Shown here: positions 15,608 through 59,896 of the stretch, piece by piece | Position numbering within the stretch: the first letter of the stretch is position 1 | Layout: every line of letters begins with the position of its first letter | Assembly: GCF_037975245.1 (NCBI RefSeq) | Contig: NC_092578.1 | Coordinates: 2,916,001-2,980,000, forward strand | Length of the DNA: 64,000 nt | Reading direction: 5' to 3' | From: Apostichopus japonicus | Taxonomy: Eukaryota > Echinodermata > Holothuroidea > Aspidochirotida > Stichopodidae | Program-made: the position numbers and the translations under genes | The notes under the pieces: model-generated | What the model was told of the DNA's origin: nothing | Seen by the model: only the letters and a program-made list of their open reading frames with translations | The model's database searches: none

Positions 15608-16145
15608 GTCTTAATGTAGTACAATGACGTCTTAATGGAGTACAATGGCATCTTAATGGAATACAATGGCGTCTTAATGGAATACAATGGCGTCTTAATG
15701 GAGTACAATGGCATCTTAATGGAATACAATGGCGTCTTAATGGAATACAATGGCGTCTTAATGGAATACAATGGCGTCTTAATGGAGTACAATGGCATCT
15801 TAATGGAATACAATGGCGTCTTAATGGAGTACAATGGCATCTTAATGGAATATAATGGCATCTTAATGGAATACAATGGCATCTTAATGGAATACAATGG
15901 CATCTTAATGGAATACAATGGCGTCTTAATGGAGTACAATCATCAATGGCATCTTAATGGAATACAATGGCGTCTTAATGGAGTACAATGGCATCTTAAT
16001 GGAATACAATGGCGTCTTAATGGAGTACAATGGCATCTTAATGGAATACAATGGTATCTTAAAGGAATACAATGGCGTCTTAATGGAGTACAATGGCGTC
16101 TTAATGGAAAACGACGGCGTCTTAATTGAGTACAATGGCGTCTAC
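15608..16145. repeat. 21-bp minisatellite, about 25 copies
   Basis: The unit is CTTAATGGARTACAATGGCR followed by T. Because 21 is a multiple of three and the unit lacks stops in some frames, it gives long spurious open frames on both strands (7-residue repeats such as MEYNGVL on plus and YSIKTPL on minus). Two variable sites (GAATAC/GAGTAC and GGCAT/GGCGT) co-vary: GAG units are mostly followed by GGCAT and GAA units often by GGCGT, hinting at a 42-bp higher-order unit. The array is interrupted near 15939-15946 and the right end is degenerate. No start context, splice site or family similarity argues for coding. Confidence 0.9.
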
Positions 16146-20935: not shown

Positions 20936-35578
<14,643 letters not shown>

Positions 35579-39706: not shown

Positions 39707-42700
39707 TCAGACACTTTGCGTTGTATCCATTAAAGATGACTGTTCTTGAACCACTGGTAACGGGTGTTGAGGGAGGGTACTCCAGGAACCGCTCGGCATA
39801 TCTCCTTGGTCCTCGTGTTCAGATTCAGGCAGGGTCACTCTATTGTCATGAAGCTGAATAGTAAACAGAAAAGGAACAGTCAAACATTCAAACTTTCGAG
39901 CACTGTCTACACCTAAAGTCATTTACAACACTATTTAGAAAATTGGTCTCAGACATATCTGTAGTTAAACCTTTATTCCCCACTTCCCCTCCCACCTTTC
40001 TTAAAAAGAAAAAAAAAGAACTGTTGGTGAAGACAAATGACAGGCTTGACCTAAAGCACCATGCCCATCCTCGCTGCTTATATCTGATAATCATTCTTGA
40101 TGACAAAGAAGGGAAAATATTAGACATTGTGTCTCACAATAGTTGCTATCCATTTCATTTCCTTTATTTTGGTACCATGTGAAGAAAGTTACTTGAAAGG
40201 TAAAACCAACAGGATAAAATATTCAGTTCTTTCGTCCACTCATGTCTGTTACATTCAAATGTTGGCGTTCTGAATTAAATCGGAGTCTTTCCTGTTGCCA
40301 ATTTACTCACTATAATGACAATCGTTGCCAGATACATAATGATAATTAATTAATTGTAATGTTTGTATACTGGGGTGTGATTTTTAATTTGGTACTTTTA
40401 TAGTTGTGTGTCTTTGTCTGCATAAAACAATGAAGAAGGCTTGACACTCACCCTATGCATATACAGAGCACTAAAGTTCATATCGGCTGTGTTGAAATCC
40501 CTCGGCGTTCCGCCGGTCAACAGGGCACTATCCGGGGCCAGAGCACCTAGCTGGATACTCTCCAGGGGATTACTGGGGGATGTCATCACTGGACTGGTGG
40601 TATGAATGCTTTGAACAGAAAAAAATAAAAACCAGATATGCAAGAAAATGCATTGTTGTTTGGACGATGTAATAAGCTGCATTTTTTTTAAGGAACCTGA
40701 TATCCGTAGGTTCCTCTGTTCCGATATCATGTTAACAAGGTTAGATTGCTCTGTTTCATTGAACAATTAAATGACCACTGAATTCCTCTTAAAGAAATAT
40801 TCATAACTTTGGTCCTCATTATGAAAAATCACTATAGGAAGTATGAGTATTGTTGTTTTCTCCGGCTGAGTAATTCTGATCTTTTCCACTTGGAAAGTAA
40901 TGCATATGCATGAATCGTTGTTCTGAACTGACGAGAAACCCTGATCCTTCCCCTTGCAATGAAACCCTTCAGTACTGGTGTACAACTGGTGACCGCTTTA
41001 ATGAAGTAATGCATATGCATGAATTGCTGTTCTGAACTGCTGAGTATAAACCGGCCCTGATTATTCCCTTCAAATGGACCTGCAGTACTTCTTGAATAAA
41101 AGCAATGCATATGCATGAATTGCTGTTCAATGACCACTTAAAGTAAATTAATGCATATACATATGAATATTAATGATGTACATATTAACACAAATTAATG
41201 CATATGCATATAAGATCAAATAAATTAATGCATATGCATGACATCATTGCTCTTACCTGCTGAGTAACCCTGATCCTTCCCCTTGGAATGGACCCTCAGT
41301 GTTCGAGATACTGCCTTTCATCTTCTTCTGTTCTGGAGCTTTTACGGGAGACGTCATTGCTCCCTGAAGGGGTAAATAGGAGGGTGCTGTGGCTGCCCCC
41401 AGGGGGGAATCAGGACTCCTCTCTTCACTTGGTTGTTGTTGTTGTTGTTGTAAAGTTTGTTGTATAGCTAAGTTTCCAAGAATACTATTTAGCTGAAAAG
41501 GAAAGAGTGAAAAGAGGGAGAAAAAAAACTGCTGAAATCTGCTGTACGAGATGTGAAGTAAACCTGTATGCCACTATATTCATATACATGAATGTCATGG
41601 TAAGTCAGTACTCTTGTACTTCAATAAGTTGACCTGGCATCTGCTCCTGGATAAAATTAAGTTTAACTTGATGCCTTTAGTAAGACATATATAAATAAAT
41701 TTATATGTATACATATATATATATGAACATTCCATTTAATGTTAAATAGGTTGATCAAATCAGGGATTGGTTGATCAAACCAGGATTCAAGGTTTCATTC
41801 ACAATTCAATGAAAAGACAGTTCTTCTACACTATTTCATTAGAGATGAAGCAAACTCACCCCTCCTTCATCCAAAGATGACAAGGACTGAAGTGACGTTA
41901 CCAAGGCGATATTCTCAGCGTCCACTCTATTGGTCAGTTGGACTTCTTGCTGAGCTAGAGACAAAAAAACAAAACAAAAAAAACAATCTGAGTCAATTAA
42001 AACGACATGTTACTGCCAAAATCTCACTGTGTTACTTTCCAACCAGAAAATGATGCCATGCACGTTCAAAGAACAAAGCATTGTGTAACAGATTCATCGA
42101 CTCCCCCCCCCTCACCCCCCATGAACACCTACCTTTCTCTTTCAGGGCTCCTATAAATTGCTTACTCTCTTCTGGTGGCTGCCAATGTGGATTTGTCATC
42201 TACAGAAAGGAGAGAAAATATTAACAAATGTAAAAATCAATATAAAAACCATCATTGGTCCTGGGCTGTAATAATGACCTTGTGCAACCCTTTAAATATA
42301 TACCTATGAGTATTAATACCCTGGTGGCTTTCTTTTGTGAGATGTTTATACACTCATCAATGATAACTAAGAACAAGAATTTAGGAAAGGAGGAGGTGAG
42401 TTAAGGGGGCTATATGGAGTAGAGAGGGGGTGGGATCACTTTTCTAGTGAAGTCTATTAGGTTCATACTTTCATGGCATTGTGAGACCCTCTTTGGCCAA
42501 TTAACTTCTTTTTCTCCTTTTTAAGAACTGACCGAATTTTATATAGATAGTTTTTCATTGGCCACCCAGTAATTGTTCACTTATGGAATACAGCTTATAT
42601 TTACGGATAGTTAACCAATATTTATGGATTTTTGATCATATCAGTTATAAATTTATGAAATTCCTACATTATACGCATTGCGGATGCGTATCATTGTATC

Positions 42701-45700: not shown

Positions 45701-48700
45701 CATGAGAAAACATCAATAAAAGGTAAGGAATGCTTGCTATACATTTCAACAACGTATCTTGTTTTGATCAACATTATGTTTGCAGCTAACATTTAGTACC
45801 ACAATGTAAATTCAAATGAGAGGGCCTGCTCTCCCCCCCCCCAGGGCCCCACCCTGGATACACCCTTGCATTGTATTCATAACAAACACCATCATCAGAG
45901 CTAGGATCTCACTCTCATTAGCTATAACTGCTACCGATGATGACAACAACCAAAGCATCACAAATAATTACGTCGGACTGGCAAAATGTGTTTGGGTGAA
46001 TAGTGACAGCCAGGGATCACGTTCCAGTAATATTTCACACTACCAAGAAAGCAGCAGGGGATGGGGGGGGGGAAGAAGTTTGGCTTTTTGTTGGCTGCAC
46101 GTACAGGCAAATATAACAAAAACACATGTTTACTTAAAAGATCAGTTTGAATATGGAAATGAACAAACCTCGTCTGGGATCAATGTCCTGCAAACTGTGA
46201 CGGCAACACCTACCGAATTGATGAAAAAAAAAAAACTTTTTTTTTACTGAGACGATATTTGGTCATTTGCTTTTATAGGTTGGGAAGTACTGACTTGATC
46301 AAATAAAATAAAATATGAGAAAAAATGAAAAAAAGGTTGATTTATAACCATAAACATGTTAAAATTATGAAAATGTCTTTGACAAAAGTGCTTCTCCACA
46401 TGAAGAAATGACAGCATAAAATAGAGCTTTGCTTGTCACAGATTCCACGATAAAGAGCATTTTATGAGGTGCAAAACAATACACGGTTATGTAGATGACA
46501 TAACACGGTTTAAAATTTCTTTTTAATTGATTAATTTATGCATCCATATGATGGATGGATTTATTGATTGATTGATTGGCAAATGCAGAAATGCAGATAA
46601 TATCACTCACTTAGCAGTGTCATAGTGGTGAGGATGTTTGTCAATAACAGTCAGAATAATGAGCACAGCCAATACTGAACCAGCAAAGTATGTATTGATT
46701 AATTTATTCATGCAATGATGGATTGAGTAATTGATTGGCAAATACCGATAATATCACTCACCTAACAGTGTCATAGTTGTGAGAACATGTTCCACAGTGA
46801 GGACATCTTCGTCAATAACAGTCAGAATAATGAGCACAGCCAACACCGAACCAGCAAAAAATGTAACATTCCTAGAAAAAGCCCAAAATTAAGGTTATCC
46901 TTAAAACTGATGGCAGATTACATTCTTTGAAATTCTATTCTTATCTTTGAAAAAAAAAAAAAAAGCACTACTCAACCTCCAAGGTGTTTGTATATGTCAC
47001 AGTTCCAGATCACATCTTCTTGTTTCGGAACGATAAGAAGTAATAAAATAATGCGATGTAATTAAAAAGTTTACAGAAGTTTAAACGTTAAACAGTTTGA
47101 GTACAAAAAGTAGGCAAGAAATTGAAATGCGAAAGTTTGTACAAAGAACAGTCATTTATATCCAGAAATCTTGTTTTCAGTGACATTGGCTGATAGGTTG
47201 AGAGGAAACATAGTCATGTGATCGACACTTTAATAAGGTCACTACTAAATGGGTACTGAGAGGCTTGTAGAGCAAGTTCGTTCCAATGTGTAGGAAATTT
47301 CACAACTATCAAACAGAAAACATGAAGATATTGCTAAAAACCAATCACAGAACAATATAACAACAGTTCACAACTGCAACTGCCCAGCTTCAAAGAATCG
47401 TTTTTGTTGGAAAACAGTCGTCGAGTTTAGGTTAAGCTCACCAGTTGTCCATGTTTGTGGTACGATTAGATGACTATGGACTTTGTTGACCTATCAGAAG
47501 CTAGGTCATGACAGTTGAGTTGAGGAGGGTGGGAGGAGGGTTCGCGTTCAGTCGGTCAGTGTGTGGTCGGATTTAAGAGCAAATTTCTTTCGGTAATGCC
47601 ACCCACCTCACCCTCCCCCTTTCCCCCTTGGTAAATCCTAAAACTAGATTCCCCAGCTAATAAAACAATGGTTTGTTGATGTTATACTTACTGAGCAAAG
47701 ATTGTGACAATGTTGGAACTGAATGAGTTGAGATACTTGCTGGCAGGTTTGTATCCTCTGTTCAATCTAGGGAGGGGGATAAAAGAGACATCAAAACAGG
47801 TACAAGCAACTACCGATTACGACATCAAGAGTTGAGGAGGTGGGGGGGGGGTGTATCCTCTGTTCAATCTGGGAATAGGGGTTGAAAGAGACATCAAAAC
47901 AGGTACAAGCAATTTATTGATTATAGAATATATTATAGATTATGATACCAAGAGGGTTAAAGTACCAGGAGTAGTAACAACAGCAAATCACAACAAAGTT
48001 CTTAAATTTTACACATATGCCCCTCTACTGCTTGAACCTCATCAAAAGAAAGAAAATCAAAATTGTAAAGCTGAAGAATAGTCTTATAAAATCCATTTGG
48101 TGTGCTTCTCAGACCAGTCTTGCATCTTTATACGCTACTTAAATTTTAATCAGTTTACGAATATGGTTAAAACTTACATAACGACAAACTTAACAGATCA
48201 AAGGTCATTCTACAATCGATTCATGAATGGGTTAATTCTTTGCTAGTTCTTCAAGACAAAAATATCGACAAATCATTGAAAAACTATTTCACTCCTACAC
48301 CCTAAGGGCTAAATGTCGTGCATACGGACAAGATCAAACATTCATCTCGTACCGTCGTAAAAACCATGGTGGGAGAGATTTTTAGAAAAAAATTTCCTCT
48401 GTTTAGCTTACCTTGCTTGGAATTCATGATCTAGTTCATTGAAATGTCTCAAGTAAAGTCTAGCATAGAGAGACCTTGAAGAAGGAAAGAAAAAAAAAGG
48501 GAAACTTAATATTGTCAATCGAGACAAGATGACATCATTCACTCTGCGGTTGCCAGACGCATTCTCAAAATATCACACAAACATAAGAAAAAAAAAGAAA
48601 AAAAAGGATGATATCTTCCCATACAAAGTGTTATGAGGATGTGATGTTGATCTAAGGATACAGAAAGTTTCCACCAATTTTTGTTTTAATCAGTAATAAA

Positions 48701-51700: not shown

Positions 51701-54700
51701 ATTTAGGTCCTCATCTTTGCATTGGTATTAATATTAGGCTTTGTAAGAATTAATCAAATATCAAACTTACAAAATAAAATCATCTCTAGGTTGTATTTCA
51801 GGCCATTGGTAACAAAGACTCTGAAAGGAAGAAAATTGTGATAATTTATCAACAAATCAATGTTATATCCTTTAAATATCAATACTCATTGAGCCATGAT
51901 ACTCCCAGTCTTAACTCCTTGTAGGCACAAATACATTTGCATCCCAACCAACAGGATATGACTACTTGAGACGGGTGTGTTCATTGGCCTTTGACAGTAG
52001 TTTGACTTCCACAGAGAAATGACTTCAAATGCGACCGGGTCAGCTTAAGAGCAAATGTAGACATTGGTCTACTCTGAGCGGATATTACTTAGCCTGTAAT
52101 TATGAACCTTAAAGATTCACACTGACCGCGGCACTTATCCGAACACAGCTATTTAGTGATGACTGAAGTGAGCCTGTGGTGCCTGATAACGAGGTCGCGG
52201 TACTTCCTGCCCCCCAGAGCCTTGTGGTGCCCAGTAACGAGGTACTCCCTGCCCCCCCCCACAGGTTTTAGGCTTCCAATCATGATAAGGAAACCAAATT
52301 TTAAAGAAAATAAGACACTGTAAGTTTGTACAGTCGATGAGTACTAAACTGAACATAAATCTGTAACATATCAAATTATCAATTAATTTTCCCTTTCTCT
52401 TCTATATTCATGTCTAATTTCTCATTGCGCTCACAAAGCCAAACATTCAAGGACGTTTATGATATACTTACACCTCCCCGAGGAATGGCAAGTTGTGTTT
52501 CAGGGGCAGTAGAGATTTGTTGACCATCGCAATTGTGTAATTTTTAAAACGGAGAATTCGGTGATAAATATCTGAGAATGAACGGAGCAAAGAAAATACC
52601 ACGATCAGCTCTTAGAAAAGAGTCCGAGGTTTTTACGTTGAAGAACAATAATAACCACATTACTACACAGCTTAATAAACTGTGACACTTCAGGTTCTTA
52701 ATTTCTTGTTTATTTGTTTGTTTCTTTGCTTCTGGCACATACTGGTAAAGTAACATTGATCAAGTCCTGCAAAACTGTGCCCATCTGATACTGGGGTATA
52801 CTTATGATAGTGTTTATTTGGTTACCATAGTAACCTCACTAGTGAGGTCTTCATTTGATGACAAACAACCAGACAACAGCATTACTATATTAATAGTTAG
52901 TAGAGTTACCTTAAGCTGTTACAAGTGTAAGCAGAATTACTTAGTTCTGTTTAGTATACTGTTACTACTAGAGTTACTTTAGTTTAATAAGTAACCTAGT
53001 TTTCTAGTGTGCTTTACCCAGTCTTGATACTAATGGTTTTAGCAAAGCTACCTTGCTCTATTACTACAGTAGTTTTATAGCACAGTTAATACCTAGTTCT
53101 ATTACTAGTGTTATGGCACAGTTACCTAGTTCTATTACTAGTGTTATATGGCACAGTTACCTAGTTCTATTACTAGTGTTTTTAGCAAAGGTACCTAGTT
53201 CTGTTACTAGTGTTTTAGCACAGTTACCTATTTCTGTTACACTTATTAAGACAGTAGTTACCTAGTTCTGTTACAAGTGTATTAGCACAGTTACCTAGTT
53301 CTGTTACTAGTGTTTTAGCATAGTTACCTATTTCTGTTACACTTATTTACACAGTAGTTACCTAGTTCTATTACTAGTGTTTTAGCATAGTTACATATTT
53401 CTGTTACACTTATTTACACAGTAGCTACCTAGTTCTATTACTAGTGTTTTAGAACAGTTACCTATTTCTGTTACACTTATTTACACAGTAGTTACCTAGT
53501 TCTATTACTAGTGTTTCAGTAGAACTTTACCTATTTCTGTTACACTTATTTACAAAGTAGTTACCTAGTTCTATTACTAGTGTTTCAGCACAGTTACCTA
53601 GTTCAGTTACTAGTGTTTAGCACAGTTACCTATTTCTGTTACACTTATTTACACAGTAGTTACCTAGTTCTATTACTAGTGTTTTAGCACAGTTACCTAT
53701 TTCTGTTACACTTATTTACACAGTAGTTACCTAGTTCTATTACTAGTGTTTCAGCAGTTACCTATTTCTGTTACACTTATTTACAAAGTAGTTACCTAGT
53801 TCTATTACTAGTGTTTCAGCACAGTTACCTAGTTCTGTTACTAGTGTTTCAGCATAGTTACCTCTTTCTGTTACACTTTTATCAAGTAATTACCTTGTTC
53901 TGTTATTTAGTGTTCTAGCACAGTACCTATTTCTGTTACACTTATTTACATAGTAATTACCTTGTTCTGTTACTAGTGTTTTAGGACAGTTACCTAGTTC
54001 TGTTAGACTTATTTACACAGTAGTTACCTATTTCTGTTACACTTATTTACATAGTAATTACCTTGTTCTGTTACTAGTGTTTTAACACAGTTACATATTT
54101 CTGTTACTAGTGTTTTTAGCACAGTTACCTATTTCTGTTAGACTGATTTACACAGTAGTTACCTATTTCTGTTAGACTGATTTACACAGTAGTCACCTAT
54201 TTCTGTTAGACTTATTTACACACTAGTTTACCTAGTTCTGTTAGACTTATTTACACAGTATTTACCTAGTTCTGTCAAGTCTGCTTTGTGTATGCACATC
54301 CTCTGCTCCTTCTGGACCTGCTGAACTCTCTTCAGAACATCATGCCAGGTAAGATTAGCAAGCTCAGACTTGAAAATAGAAGAGAAAAAACAATTCCACA
54401 AATCCATAAACTTTCGAATAAAGTGAAATTAAAGCGCCTAGTTTTGCAACAGAATATTAAAAATGTTATCAATGATGAATAAAATGTCAGGCAAGTGCAA
54501 CTCATATTTTTCAATACTCATCCTTCCTAGAATATACACAGCGAGAAATTCCATTTTTGTAATATGTGGTAATCGTCAAGCACCAATACAATCTGTTCTT
54601 TACTTAATTCTGCAAGTCACATGAGGTAATATATTCTACATTGAATTTAATTGTCATCTTTCAAAAAAAAAAAAAAAATCTGTGCTCATGACACCATCTA

Positions 54701-57700
54701 TTTAAGTGTTCCACTTTTCTTTGTCATCTTGGGCAGAGACTCACAACGGATGGAATAATTTTTCTGGAAGGAAACATCTTCCAGTAAATCTTGGGTCGTT
54801 AATTGATTCATTGATTAAGTAGGTCACTGTTTATATTAGTGTTGATTCTTTTACTGAGAATCATAGATCACATATTTTGACAGAACTATTATTCAAAGTC
54901 ACTGTATTTATCACACAAACGTGCATCTTTGCTACAAATTTGCATAACAAATAAGAAAGAAACAGGCATTCCATTGTTATTGTTTTAAACATACATGAAG
55001 ATTAAAGATGATCTCTTGTAGGCTGGGATTACTAGCAAATTGTGGATGACTAATACAGGAATATTAAATAAAGAGCAGCTATATTTTAAACAAAGATCGG
55101 TTACATTATAAACAAAGAGTGGTTATATTACAAACAAAGAGCGGTTATATTTATTAACAAAGAGTGGTCATATTTAAACAAAGTGCAGTTACAGGTTATA
55201 TTATAAAAAGAGAGTGGTTATATTATAAAAAAAGAGCGGTTATATTATCAACAAAGAGAGGTTCTATTGGTTATATTTTAAACAAAGAGCGGTTATGGGT
55301 TATATTATACACAAAGAGCGGTTATATTATAAACAAAGAGTGGTTATATTTTACCGCCAACTCTACTTACAGAGGAGACTTTCAGAGCAGACAGATAAAA
55401 TGCTCTGATCTCCCAGAATTGGTAGGCATTGTACAAGACTCTTGTAAGACGATGTAACCAAAAGATACCGGCAACTAGAAGACATGTTATAAGCACCGGT
55501 GGGCGTCTGTGTGAATATTAAGTAATGAGCACATGTTATAATGTTATAATGAGCTACACGTTATAAAGCATCGGTGAGCATCTGTTTGAATATTTAGAAC
55601 GAGAAGAGATGTGAATCAGAAAATTTATAACAGCTTTGATTATTTAACAGGAGGTACAAACTCAAACCCTCATCGTTATTAAACACACCCCCTCACCCCC
55701 CCTCCTCACCCCCAGAAACCAACCCCCTTCTCACCTCACACTCTTTTCAGCCAAGAGATACAAACCTTAACGATCATCATTAATAACCCATTTGCTAGGA
55801 GATACAGTACTTTTAATGATCATCTCCCTTGTGCAAACACAGCAGGAGAAATAACATATCGATGAAGGCGACATAATGTGATATATCTATGTACACTAGA
55901 CTGAAGACTTGAACAAGTCTTTTTAAAAATAAAAATATCAAATTATAGAAATATGTCTTTAGACATACAGCAGAGTCACTGCTGCTAGCAGCAGCCATGC
56001 TCAGTACTTAAGTTCATTGGTTTGCAAATTTATGTGCAAACTGCCTGTGATTACAAATTTTAAGTTCTTACAAGAATCCTTTTGACTGGAATTGTTTTCA
56101 ATATTATACAGTTGTATCACAAAATTAGGAAAAGAATAAACATGGATAAAAACGTTTCACCGCTTGTTGGGGGACTATAATATCACACATTGGGGGGGGG
56201 GGAGTGGTTACTCCCTGAAATGACTTTAAAAATTTCATGTCTCCCAAAAATGGAAGTCAATATTTTCTTAGGCTGTTTGAACAATTTGTTCCTTACAAGC
56301 ATATATAAGTTTTTATCATATAAGAAGAGTCTGATGTTTAAGTGTACTGAAACATCTTTAAAGAAAGAACTGTTCAGGTGCATCTTACAACTTTACAAGA
56401 CTAATAAGAGAACCAGGCAGCAGACTATATACCAGAGAACTCTCCGCTCGGCAGTATTAGTCATTCGAGTGTTATTGTAGAAATGTACAACATTCCATTC
56501 CATAGAGCTCCCCTCTTCCCCCCTCCCGCCCCACACACTGTCCCTCTTTAAATGAACTTACGGAGAGAATGTCCTAACAAATATGATTTTAGAATCATTT
56601 TACTCACTCTGTTGAACACTCTTTTATGACATCAGGAATAGATATTTTCTTTTCATGATCAAACAAGGTTGCATAATCCACACATCGCAGAAGAAACAGA
56701 GAAAACAGACAGATGAATAAAAATTGCCTGTTTGGAACAAGAACGAAAGAAAGGTTTATTCCTTCGTTTCTGTGACATGATATACGGTAGGCTTCAAAAC
56801 GAGGAAAAAAAAGAAAGAGAGAAAACGGCAGAAATCTGTATTTAGATCAAAAGGGGCACTGGAAGATTACAATGGTCAACTGGAATTTAAATACTGTACC
56901 CATCCAATATTTCCTGAAAAATCTCCGGTATGAAAGGATTGAATATAAATCCCTTCGCACGCTGCCCTAGTACTACGACTCGACTCGTCCTAGTCTTCGA
57001 TTATCTTGAAGACCCACTGGACTTACAACTGACCCCCATCACACTGACTGACCGACTGATCAGCACACACGACGACTGTTTGCTGTCAACGACCGGAGCT
57101 CGTTGAGGTGACATGCAAATTAATTAACCAGTGATTCGTTACACTTTGTTCAAACTGCACAGGTGTAGTTGCGAACCACTGTACACGGTCAACTGCCAGT
57201 TGGGCAAAACAATACCAGTTCAGTTTTCCTGACTATAATTTAAAAACTGTTCAAATCTTCACTGGTGGCAGTCTTAAACACGTGCACACTTCCCGACCTA
57301 CTCTCAATTTTCCATGTCATCATTGGTCTAGTTGAACCAGGTCATGCGGGAGGCTCCATAAAGTAAAAATTTGGCGACTCCTTGATATCTTAAAGCAGAC
57401 TTGATGACAATACTTACACTAGTTCTAATATTTGACTGAGCATCATACATAAATAGCCATGATTCTGATGAAAGAGATAAATGTAAGAAACGAACAGTTA
57501 AGGAACCTCAATTGATGCTGAAAAAATATCAAACCTCTAAAAGTTCAATCTCCCAGTTTTTTTTTTGCATTTTGTGGTAAAATATTAAAATATTTGTTTT
57601 ATATAACTTGCATGTACATATCATCCGGTAAAATACTTGGCAAATTATAGACAATTTTTTCTAGAAAATTTGATAATTCAACACTAGCTGTATGATTAAT

Positions 57701-59896
57701 AGCCAAAAGCCATACAAAGTATCAACTATCAATTAAGAAAACTATTGGCTATACAAGGTTACTACTTCATGGAAACATTTGTAACTTAAGAAGAAAAAAT
57801 TATCAGACATTAAGAATATATGTATTACGAACGGCTGACAAGACTGAACATATAGAATCCAGCCTTGACAGGAGTTTCATCAAAATCTTCAAAAATTATG
57901 GATGAGTTTTTTTTTATGCTTTATAAACATGTGACATTTTGCGACGATCCAAAAACTTGTTTAGAAAAGGATATTCTTGAGAAAAACGCATCCAGGTTCT
58001 CAATGTGATTCCATCGAGCTGAAAGAAATGAAAGATAAAGTAACGTTACATCCTCAATGGAGATAATCGTCCGAGATGACCCAAATTTCTGTTCGTACAC
58101 GCAATATTGGCTTCAGAGGTGGTCTGACAGGCAACTACTGTAGCTGCTTACATCAAATTTAGATGCGTTGTAACTAAAATACCACAAAATAGTTAAAATG
58201 ATCATAAAATTGGTGTCATCCCCAAAGCTGGTTTCTATTCACCAAACCTACACATCTCTCCTACAGTGTACATATTGGTGTTCTATTCACCAACCTACAC
58301 ATCTCTCCTACAGTGTACATATTGGTGTTCTATTCACCAACCTACACATCTCTCCTACAGTGTACATATTGGTATTCTATTCACCAAACCTACACATCTC
58401 TCCTACAGTGTACATATTGGTGTTCTATTCACCAACCTACACATCTCTCCTACAGTGTACATATTGGTGTTCTATTCACCAACCTACACATCTCTCCTAC
58501 AGTGTACATATTGGTATTCTATTCACCAAACCTACACATCTCTCCTACAGTGTACATATTGTGTTCTATTCACCAACCTACACATCTCTCCTACAGTGAA
58601 CATATTGGTGTTCTGTTCACCAAACTTGCACATGTCTCCTACAGTGTACATATTGGTGTTCTGTTCACCAAACCTACACATCTCTCCTACAGTGTACATA
58701 TTGTGTTCTATTCACCAACCTACACATCTCTCCTACAGTCTACATATTGGTGTTCTGTTCACCAAACCTACACCTCTCTCCTAAAGTGTACATATTGGTG
58801 TTCTGTTCACCAAACCTACACATCTCTCCTACAGTCTACATATTGGTCATTGTTATTTTGCTAGTTGTTTTGGACAACTAAAATGTGTTGTTCAGATAAC
58901 CAAAAGGTAATGCCTGGTTGTCTGAGGAACTGGGAGGGAAAAAACAATATTGATTTTTTTTCCTTGGCTGTGCTAACATATTGTTGTTAATAACCTTTCT
59001 TGTCAGTAATCTCCAGTCATTTACTAAAACCATTCCTTCTGATTTTGTCCTCTCATATAATTAGTTTAAGGCATGCCATGGTAGTCATCATCGTATTCTC
59101 ATCTCATTGTCACTTCATTTGACTAACAATTCGTCTCACATTTTATAAACATTCCCATGGAGCGAGCACATTACTGCTCTTGTATGTATGTATGTATATG
59201 TGATCTTCCCGCAAGCAGGAACTCGCGAAAGAAGCCGTGGAGGCTTATAGACTCGCAAGCTGACCAAAGCCAATCTCTCGGCACACATTCATTTAACGTC
59301 CATGTCAGGAAGTTGTTATTGAACAACACCCTTGCCAGACGACACACATTGCTGTCGGCGGGGAATCGAACCGGGGATCTCATGACTGGGAGACGCCAGC
59401 GTTAACCACTAGGCTATACACTCCGCCTTAGGCTATACACTCCGGCTATACACTCCGGCTATACACTCCGCTCTTAGAACTGTTCATTATCTACTCCTAG
59501 GTGGTCAGGAAAAAGTAAGGAAAATCTAACAGAAGTGAATGCAGTACCTGGGCTTCAGGAGGTGTTTGAGATGTTTGTTAAACCAGGTCAAATGTTGTTG
59601 TACTTACACTATTTTTAATTCTTATGCTAGGCTCTAGGTATCTAGTAGGAGCTATGTATATATTTGATTTTCAATTAACTTGGCAAAAGGGCTTTACATT
59701 CTCTGTTGTTTGAGTTCTTATACCTTTGTTGAACCTTACAGGGCTGGTGGTCGGGTGGGGGGGGGAGTGATGGAGGATTTTTACACTATTGCTTACCCCT
59801 GCCACTGTCTGGCACATGTAACATAACATCATGTTCATCCACATTGTCATCTTCTTGCGTTTCCAACCTCTGGTATTCTGTCTCCAATCGACTCAT
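39707..59896 (-). CDS. ATG9: Autophagy-related protein 9 (ATG9), complete, 22 exons
   Basis: Coding exons (minus strand): 59896-59797, 58018-57957, 57464-57418, 56727-56608, 55506-55371, 54368-54266, 52571-52472, 51820-51771, 50674-50584, 49571-49431, 48474-48412, 47766-47692, 46871-46762, 46209-46169, 45427-45293, 43886-43707, 43156-43073, 42199-42133, 41954-41860, 41492-41257, 40608-40452 and 39853-39707. They give 779 aa (human ATG9A 839) with all phases consistent. ATG9 is the trimeric lipid scramblase of autophagosome-seeding vesicles. Y8-QRLE is the conserved N-terminal adaptor-sorting signal. Then come HIENLDAFFSR, membrane helices at about 70-90 and 112-128, NLLLAPFISLWQILYSFFSYAE, LRHFNELDHE, LNRGYKPASKY, the helix AGSVLAVLIILTVIDED and VTVCRTLIPDE. 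The signature block is ELLSPIVTPFILIF, LRPRALDIVDF and NFTVEVIGVGDVCSFAQMDVR (459-512). The C-terminal tail is disordered, with six Gln at about 615 and ALYMHR near 731. An in-frame TAA upstream supports the ATG. Exons 3 (47 nt) and 14 (41 nt) are very short, and exon 2 uses a weak GTTTTT donor. Confidence 0.96.
40905..41310 (-). repeat. About 110-bp repeats copying the end of ATG9 exon 20, with ATGCATATGCAT palindromes
   Basis: The exon 20 end (41257-41306) is echoed at about 41037-41092 and 40928-40977, offset by 220 and 109 bp, so the underlying period is about 110 with one unit reduced to its palindromic part. Each echo carries roughly 45 nt of exon-like sequence (GGTCCATT..AAGG..GGATCAGGG..CTCAGCAG in the true exon) followed by the 12-bp palindrome ATGCATATGCAT or a near copy, seen about six times between 40901 and 41237. 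The copies lack a good GTAAGT donor. They produce a spurious open frame at 40832-41137. Confidence 0.8.
44155..44510 (-). mobile_element. tRNA-derived SINE, full head, intron 15 of ATG9
   Basis: On the minus strand the element starts with a polymerase III promoter-like head: box A TGGTCAAGTGG (44486-44496) and a degenerate box B GGTTGGAGTTC (44442-44452). A body follows that is shared with a second copy at 49605-49877 (AAATGGGGACTTG, GTTGCGTGCGCCGGT, AAGTCCCCCAGGGGACAC, CACACTTTGGTGTG). The two 3' tails differ. It is noncoding; open frames across it are chance. Confidence 0.8.
44920..45222 (-). mobile_element. tRNA-derived SINE, second family, intron 15 of ATG9
   Basis: The minus strand shows a tRNA-like head beginning near 45222 (GGTGCTGTGGATGAGTTG) and a perfect box B GGTTCGATACC at 45138-45148 within a CCCGGCC-type arm. 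The body continues to about 44920 with TTTGTGGTCGCTTAAGCGTC and an ATT-rich tail. The anticodon region does not fold as a genuine tRNA, so this is a SINE head rather than a tRNA gene. Confidence 0.7.
46527..46871 (-). repeat. 168-bp tandem duplication carrying ATG9 exon 13, second copy decayed
   Basis: Unit 1 starts near 46527 and unit 2 near 46695. Unit 2 holds the functional exon 13 (46871-46762). Unit 1 holds a decayed exon at about 46690-46610: the donor GTGAGT is kept (preceded by CTAA instead of TTAG), the acceptor AG is lost, and about 20 nt are missing, apparently by deletion between two GTGAG direct repeats plus a 2-nt loss. The decayed copy lies in the intron after the real exon, so a working splice there would require a new acceptor. 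Confidence 0.9.
47751..47965 (-). repeat. 102-bp tandem duplication across the ATG9 exon 12 acceptor
   Basis: Sequence from 47751 recurs at 47853. The first 16 bp of each copy correspond to the first 16 bases of exon 12 (true start 47766). The rest is upstream intron containing GAGACATCAAAACAGG. The intronic copy keeps a CCCAG|ATTGAAC acceptor, 102 nt upstream of the real one. If used, it would add intronic sequence to the exon and shift nothing downstream only by chance: 102 is a multiple of three, but stops would need checking. Confidence 0.88.
48777..49341 (+). mobile_element. Penelope-like retroelement 3' fragment, intron 10 of ATG9
   Basis: From 48777 the plus strand reads HRSTVNTMKTETPVGEHFNL, then INDMSLQGIE, LWMQRLRTIQPHGLN, to about 48977. 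This matches the order of conserved blocks at the end of the GIY-YIG endonuclease region of Penelope-like ORFs (RST..., HFN, WI.KL.T..P.GLN). After a 300-bp pyrimidine-rich stretch comes GATCCTGCTAGGATCGAAAC (about 49315), a sequence type common at the 3' end of such elements. The reverse transcriptase and the GIY-YIG core are absent. It is a truncated, inactive copy opposite to ATG9. Confidence 0.65.
49605..49877 (+). mobile_element. 5'-truncated SINE abutting ATG9 exon 10
   Basis: This shares its body with the SINE at 44155-44510 but lacks the tRNA-like head. It begins near CCCAGGTGTATAAATGG (49607) and ends in GCGCTATATAAGAACTG and an (ATT)n tail at about 49857-49877. It is antisense to ATG9, with its truncated end only about 33 nt upstream of the exon 10 acceptor (exon start 49571). 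The remaining polypyrimidine tract is CTTTCCTTTTTCTTTTCAG. The antisense frame runs openly through the SINE into the exon. Confidence 0.8.
53041..54275 (-). repeat. 34-bp minisatellite grown from the ATG9 exon 6 donor, about 36 units
   Basis: On the minus strand exon 6 ends ACAGAACTAG|GTAAATACTG. The array that follows directly repeats ACAGAACTAGGTAACTACTG plus about 14 bp (GTAAATAAGTGTA-like), alternating with a variant ACAGAAATAGGTAACTGTGC. The first unit therefore includes the last 10 exonic bases and the true donor, and nearly every unit carries AG|GTAACT, a good U1 match. The copy number is an estimate from length over period. The array occupies most of intron 6. Confidence 0.92.
55060..55350. 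repeat. About 22-bp AT-rich tandem repeat in ATG9 intron 5
   Basis: Irregular units of GGTTATATTATAAACAAAGA plus GC or GT, roughly 12 copies of 20-30 bp, end about 20 bp before the exon 5 donor (exon end 55371). Not exon-derived as far as can be seen. Confidence 0.8.
58225..58855. repeat. 47-bp minisatellite in ATG9 intron 1, about 13 copies
   Basis: The unit runs TTCTATTCACCAACCTACAC, ATCTCTCCTACAGTGTACAT, ATTGGTG. Copies of 46-48 bp differ by an extra A after CACCA, a lost G in TATTGGTG, and a few substitutions. Units with CACCAAACC and CACCAACC alternate in blocks, suggesting a three-unit higher-order repeat. All three plus-strand frames stay open across it, which explains the large but meaningless open frames at 58198-58864. 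The array ends about 200 bp before ATG9 exon 2. Confidence 0.92.
59185..59420 (-). mobile_element. tRNA-derived SINE, third family, intergenic side of ATG9 intron 1
   Basis: The minus strand has box A TAGCCTAGTGG (59406-59416) and box B GGTTCGATTCC (59362-59372) at a tRNA-like spacing. A body follows (TGTCGTCTGGCAAGGG, TTGGCTTTGGTCAGC, CACGGCTTCTTTCGCG) ending in a CATA-rich tail near 59185. On the 5' side the first 14 bp of the head (GGCTATACACTCCG on plus) are repeated about four times at 59412-59471. A genuine tRNA gene is unlikely because the T-arm and acceptor do not pair properly. It lies inside ATG9 intron 1. Confidence 0.8.

Follow-up and report, generated by a model that had tools for sequence, protein, structure and literature searches.

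Among described repeats that begin at a splice donor is the VNTR in intron 18 of human ABCA7, which has 25-bp units in about 24 reference copies and whose first GT is the donor of exon 18 (PMC5954066). As far as the available text of that report goes, one unit can be retained, leading to a premature stop, and blocking decay raised the stop-bearing transcripts; of the two frame-shifting isoforms, one arises from cryptic acceptor use and the other from unit retention, the figures quoted being 14 and 2% ‘respectively’, and neither varied with array length; the main effect of length was increased skipping of the exon that follows, an in-frame event of 44 residues (PMC5954066). A second source, in its accessible portion, describes variable internal tandem repeats located where human exons and introns meet: minisatellites that can alter gene structure, differ from one recent paralogue to another and reportedly give rise to novel introns (PMC2812944). 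In the Rogers model, as told in the part of PMC4974935 that is available, introns are gained by tandem duplication of an exonic segment that bears AGGT.

The array described here lies in intron 6 of ATG9 in the sea cucumber Apostichopus japonicus; the window, that is, the whole stretch of DNA that was analysed, is 64,000 nucleotides long and also contains KARS1. As in ABCA7 intron 18, to the extent that the available text describes it, the ATG9 array directly follows an exon whose donor is its first GT, carries a donor-like GT in each unit, and is so arranged that splicing from the donor of the next unit changes the reading frame and leads to a premature stop (for ATG9, by computation). Unlike the 25-bp, about 24-copy human repeat, it has 37 units of 31–41 bp and its repeat also includes 10 exonic bases; and whereas the ABCA7 next-exon skip is in-frame, skipping of ATG9 exon 7 (100 nt) would shift the frame (PMC5954066). 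The best reading of these structural features of the sequence is that the ATG9 array belongs to the ABCA7 intron 18 kind, which suggests that this kind of repeat is not a human oddity. The human boundary repeats, as presented in the available text, likewise consist of minisatellite copies at an exon-intron boundary; they are reported to form novel introns, whereas in ATG9 an existing intron holds the copies (PMC2812944). Similarly, the ATG9 tandem copies carry AG|GT (the bar marks the cut) as in the Rogers model but, unlike in the model as it is told there, no new intron results, and the copies sit in an existing intron without acceptor features (PMC4974935). Intron gain of the Rogers type was rejected for the units themselves, 0/36 of which reach the pyrimidine content of the lowest real acceptor (maximum 0.50 vs 0.56). 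A recursive splice site is a polypyrimidine tract followed by AG|GT; this candidate was rejected on the same measurement. In searches of the literature on repeats and splice sites and on A. japonicus, no title among the matches listed concerns the ATG9 locus, which is no proof of absence from print.

Structure of the array in ATG9 intron 6

We set the splice sites so that the joined exons translate to A. japonicus proteins, P0001 for ATG9 (20/21 introns) and P0121 for KARS1 (13/13 introns); the resulting set comprises 33 of the 34 introns, ATG9 intron 2 being left out. Donors were scored with a matrix built from the window's own 32–33 donors, with the scored site omitted each time, and exon comparisons used the 30 internal exons among the 36 coding exons of the two genes. 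The last base of ATG9 exon 6 is 54266; the boundary reads ACAGAACTAG|GTAAATACTG (in a fuller form, GACAGAACTAG|GTAAATACTG), with TAG|GTAAAT as the authentic donor. At the protein level, LTEL is joined to DIYH in the A. japonicus models P0001 and P0003 and in Holothuria P0002.

Tandem Repeats Finder reports an array with periods of 34 and 67 bp (rows 53014–54243 and 53090–54275; scores 874–880) that is in register with the end of exon 6; the final 10 nt of the exon are part of its first unit. A minisatellite consists of head-to-tail copies of a unit of roughly 10–100 bp, and with these periods the ATG9 array is one. Each of the 36 intronic units has a GT at the homologous place; this is AG|GT in 34/36 and TAT|GT in the two others (54095 and 53395). 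Together with the two AG|GT sites in the decayed tail and one beyond the tail at 52835, intron 6 contains 37 AG|GT sites. The preliminary description had placed the array well and had counted about 36 decoy donors after exon 6, a number that these totals bear out; its statement that the 10 exonic bases plus AG|GTAACT recur in almost every unit was too strong, for the exact TAG|GTAACT occurs in 22/36 units and the exact 10-mer in only 6/36 (one mismatch in 26, two in 3 and three in 1). Rfam gave no match at gathering score within the window, and an exact 50-base piece of the array was not found in viral contigs.

Table 1. Features of the ATG9 and KARS1 loci (positions in the window).
Feature	Position	Strand	Remarks
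ATG9 coding exons	59896 to 39710	minus	letter-for-letter match to A. japonicus protein P0001
ATG9 intron 4 acceptor junction copy	55557..55635	minus	AG kept
ATG9 coding exon 6	54266..54368	minus	103 nt, ends ACAGAACTAG; spliced match to P0001
Exon-bound first unit	54242..54275	minus	34 nt: last 10 nt of exon 6 + TAG|GTAAAT donor + 24 nt of intron 6
36 intronic units	53014..54241	minus	31–41 nt each, partly paired as 67-nt block
Four decoys keeping exon 6 <250 nt	54232, 54197, 54163, 54129 (54129..54232; last base before cut)	minus	exon of 137, 172, 206, 240 nt
Three AAG|GTAATTAC decoys	54062, 53961, 53894 (stretch 53894..54062)	minus	AAG|GTAATT, 7.57 bits, above real donor
Decayed array tail	52900..53013	minus	AG|GT at 52996 and 52910; end set by eye
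ATG9 coding exon 7	52472..52571	minus	100 nt, normal splice partner of exon 6 (DIYHRILRF...)
ATG9 intron 11 acceptor junction copy	47829..47912	minus	AG kept
ATG9 exon 13 partial copy + donor, in intron 13	46589..46670	minus	TAA|GTGAGT at 46611, 6.38 vs 9.38 bits
ATG9 exon 20 end + donor copy, in intron 20	40899..40973	minus	GT lost
KARS1 coding exons	35578 to 20939	minus	letter-for-letter match to A. japonicus protein P0121
KARS1 sister array	23057..23360	minus	exon 13 end + donor as 86-bp tandem units

Strength of the decoy donors and consequences of their use

With the window's donor matrix, the real exon 6 donor scores 6.75 bits and the common decoy TAG|GTAACT 4.72 bits. Most decoys score lower, most often by 2 bits because of the C at +5, a base absent from the real donors (0/33) and present in 29 of the 36 units (T in 5, A in 2). 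With regard to selection against G at this position, G is found in 0/36 units; the departures from C are few and some of them are in linked copies, so the lack of G is no evidence of such selection. The AAG|GTAATTAC decoys share an 11-nt sequence with the real donor of ATG9 intron 17; the one further site at or above the real donor's score is at 52910 in the array tail (6.80 bits). Candidates that score at least as high as the real donor occur in intron 6 at 2.4/kb, compared with 1.8/kb averaged over the other 32 introns (rank 13/33); weak candidates (at least 4.5 bits) occur at 18.3/kb, compared with a mean of 5.7 elsewhere (rank 2/33). The preliminary description spoke of dozens of near-equal donors. 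This has some basis in the predicted pairing with the U1 5' end, which is −6.4 kcal/mol for the common decoy and −6.7 for the real donor, and the real donor is itself the ninth weakest of 33; for the most part it does not hold for the scores, in which 33/37 AG|GT sites of intron 6 fall below the real donor and 4/37 are at or above it. That the decoys are hidden by RNA structure was rejected: three 146-nt stretches fold no better than their shuffles (z 1.17, 1.55 and −0.02).

Computed translations predict that each of the 44 A(G/T)|GT sites tested in intron 6 would, if used, give a premature stop; for 43/44 the stop lies within the retained array, 12 residues past LTEL, and retention of one unit (the +34 site) shifts the frame and gives a stop in exon 7. 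New isoforms of the loop before HRILRF, as proposed earlier, are therefore unsupported, and the products of decoy use would be truncated. Between the two alternatives that had been offered, enforcement of the exon-proximal donor by position or exon definition appears better than noisy splicing that generates loop isoforms.

Donor choice has been studied in human cells, and in the available part of that work the upstream donor is favoured in exon-defined events with near-equal donors, is used exclusively in minigenes with two identical strong donors, and smaller exons are favoured (PMC9225289). The same source reports that without a strength filter about 60% of events favour the downstream donor, that the downstream donor is likewise favoured in strict intron-definition events, and that larger exons are mostly skipped when both donors are weakened (PMC9225289). 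At ATG9 exon 6, position and strength agree, since the four decoys that keep the exon below 250 nt (4.95, 3.94, 4.72 and 4.72 bits in the order of Table 1) are all weaker than the real donor; we assume, by analogy, that sea cucumbers would follow the human exon-definition rule.

Origin and effect of the ATG9 array

The best explanation, to which we assign a probability of about 0.72, is that the ATG9 array is a donor-anchored minisatellite that consists mostly of weakened decoys and is near-neutral, the latter being its most likely effect. The proposed starting point is a short local duplication whose segment ran from base −10 of exon 6 through the donor GT to about 24 nt into the intron; slippage or unequal exchange would have raised the number of units to 37, in large part by way of a 67-bp block of two units. 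What we observe is the copies, and it is the copying that we infer. Coding and splicing would then have held the exon-bound unit while the intronic units drifted; the C at +5 in most of the latter, seen both in the sequence and in the scoring, would weaken them as donors. The exon-adjacent donor should win: exon 6 has only 103 nt whereas the introns on either side have 1002 and 1694 nt, an exon-defined setting of the kind in which the upstream of two equal donors is preferred in human cells, and the decoys within reach of an exon below 250 nt are all weaker. If a decoy is used on rare occasions, the +34 site being the likeliest, the computed premature stop would follow and the message would probably decay. 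Several points count against this explanation: four sites reach or exceed the score of the real donor, which is itself among the weaker ones, the predicted U1 pairing is nearly equal, the homology ends at exon base −10, and similarity does not fall significantly along the array; so do the human results in which the downstream donor is favoured without a strength filter and larger exons are skipped when donors are weak.

Descent of the array from the exon 6 boundary is likely, as judged from the comparison of its copies, because their majority sequence, taken column by column over all 36, is the exact exonic 10-mer ACAGAACTAG. The preliminary description had proposed amplification from this junction, with which the array is continuous and in register, and had named a chance match as the outcome that would speak against it; the amplification probably did occur, for the intron copy of the junction (−20 to +10) scores 20, compared with at most 14 in 60 dinucleotide shuffles, and the best match to the 10-mer among the 29 other internal exons of ATG9 and KARS1 is 8/10. 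The exon-bound unit closely resembles its three neighbours, with similarities of 32, 30 and 31 out of about 34. An alignment had suggested homology about 22 nt into the exon, but this was rejected: from −22 to −11, upstream of exon base −10, the match is insignificant, with 700 of 3000 control exonic 12-mers fitting equally well or better. Along the array, similarity to the exon-bound unit shows no significant fall (rho −0.30, P 0.08, 34/36 units). The opposite course, in which the array was born within the intron from another site and the exon match is due to chance or to later conversion of the exon by the array, is in our judgement improbable; it would account for a match that spans only 10 exonic nt, and the third codon positions of ACA GAA CTA could be conversion products. 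Against it, 12/13 aligned proteins, spanning echinoderms and a mammal among others, conserve LTELD, which makes the exon the older partner; the conserved TEL|D alone fixes about six of the ten bases, and the majority of the copies agrees with all ten, in register with the cut, at a junction score that the shuffles do not reach.

The effect of the array could also be other than near-neutral. Appreciable and perhaps regulated decoy use might lower ATG9 output, with array length as the tuning knob; we regard such a sink of unproductive splicing as unlikely, although a stop from each of the 44 alternative sites, the enrichment of weak candidate donors, the almost equal U1 pairing and a database isoform that reads into the sister array of KARS1 would all fit it, as would the ABCA7 report, whose available text describes one-unit retention as a real event that increases under a block of decay (PMC5954066). 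The same text, however, describes unit retention as unchanged with array length (PMC5954066), most of the ATG9 decoys lack the favourable +5 base, and both A. japonicus ATG9 models have the normal junction. When the read-through product was used as a query, a protein search found, among 46 candidates, one ATG9 relative that is 40% identical over 45% of the query and so too far removed to represent this product; the missing protein weighs little, because decayed messages would rarely leave one in a database. A different effect would be repair by re-splicing: after a decoy-to-exon 7 join, a second splice from the real donor to the AG of that decoy's unit would restore the normal message. The geometry permits this, with an AG at each decoy cut that would rebuild the exon 6–7 join, but we give it almost no credence: the 18 nt before the units' AG have a mean pyrimidine content of 0.35 and a maximum of 0.50, that is, no polypyrimidine tract, whereas the 33 real acceptors have a mean of 0.80 and a minimum of 0.56. 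Whatever its effect, the array is a natural experiment in splice-site choice, with one real donor followed by 36 graded, in-register copies.

KARS1 and other junction copies in the window

KARS1, 31 kb away, complements the ATG9 array with three equally strong copies of one donor: AAG|GTGAGT at 23277 (the normal donor), 23191 and 23105 each score 11.38 bits, and the second and third 86-bp units match the first at 85/86 and 84/86 bases. The start of the unit in exon 13 (GAGTACGGGCTC) and the flank of the donor (GAGTACAGGCTC) have GAGTAC in common; this motif is a possible seed of the duplication, although a completed duplication would look identical. The normal junction, NNNIK joined to EVLFF, is found in P0121 (isoform X3) and in three relatives (P0123, P0124 and P0128). 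P0122 (A. japonicus lysine--tRNA ligase-like isoform X2, clustered as three sequences) continues beyond the first donor into the array and terminates before the second, and is therefore compatible with decoy use and with retention of the intron alike; it is a database model and no proof of a transcript. Gene models near such arrays may thus hold array-derived ends, as P0122 does, or array-like exons, as in ATG9. In place of an exon, P0003, the older ATG9 model of A. japonicus, has about 100 residues similar to the translation of a 47-bp-type tandem array in ATG9 intron 1 (58229–58847); the window's copy of this translation contains stops, and the array-like residues look like a gene-model error.

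Among the 66 junctions in the set (33 donors and 33 acceptors), six have a copy in their own intron at z >4, in 6/33 introns: the donors of ATG9 introns 6, 13 and 20 and of KARS1 intron 13, and the acceptors of ATG9 introns 4 and 11. In ATG9 intron 13, the region 46589–46693 holds what is left of a small tandem duplication of exon 13, a partial and decayed copy that includes the donor. The idea that junctions are especially prone to duplication was rejected, as non-exonic 30-mers are copied locally at least as often: at a score of at least 18, local copies were found for 4/59 donor, 4/55 acceptor, 11/227 exonic, 4/35 mixed and 284/2841 non-exonic 30-mers, and at a score of 22 for 3/59, 0/55 and 228/2841 of the donor, acceptor and non-exonic ones (the sampled 30-mers overlap, and the non-exonic class includes the intergenic stretch, the arrays themselves and a few unmasked exons). 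The simplest view is that short local duplications abound in the genome and that some of them happen to include a splice site. A more elaborate scheme, which we offer as a speculation with little chance of being right, is that local tandem duplication in the A. japonicus genome repeatedly captures donors and that the arrays pass through a life cycle, in which young, armed arrays (KARS1) make unproductive or truncated messages and stay short, and loss of the +5 base (ATG9) makes an array tolerable, so that it can lengthen; if so, array length and the state of +5 would be heritable settings that tune housekeeping-gene output.

Four of the eight intronic arrays in ATG9 and KARS1 span a donor or start within 25 nt of one, and none lies in this way at an acceptor (placement P 0.004), a test that was chosen after the data had been seen and provides a lead only. 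In ATG9 intron 5, a 22-bp array (55064–55353) begins 17 nt past the exon 5 donor and shows no sign of origin from that junction. KARS1 intron 11 has a 22-bp array (25945–26027) that begins 20 nt past the exon 11 donor AAG|GTACAG; this donor is the weakest of the 33, and 21 other GT sites in intron 11 score at least as high. Outside both genes, at 15608–16143, is a 21-bp tandem array of about 25 copies that are 89% alike.
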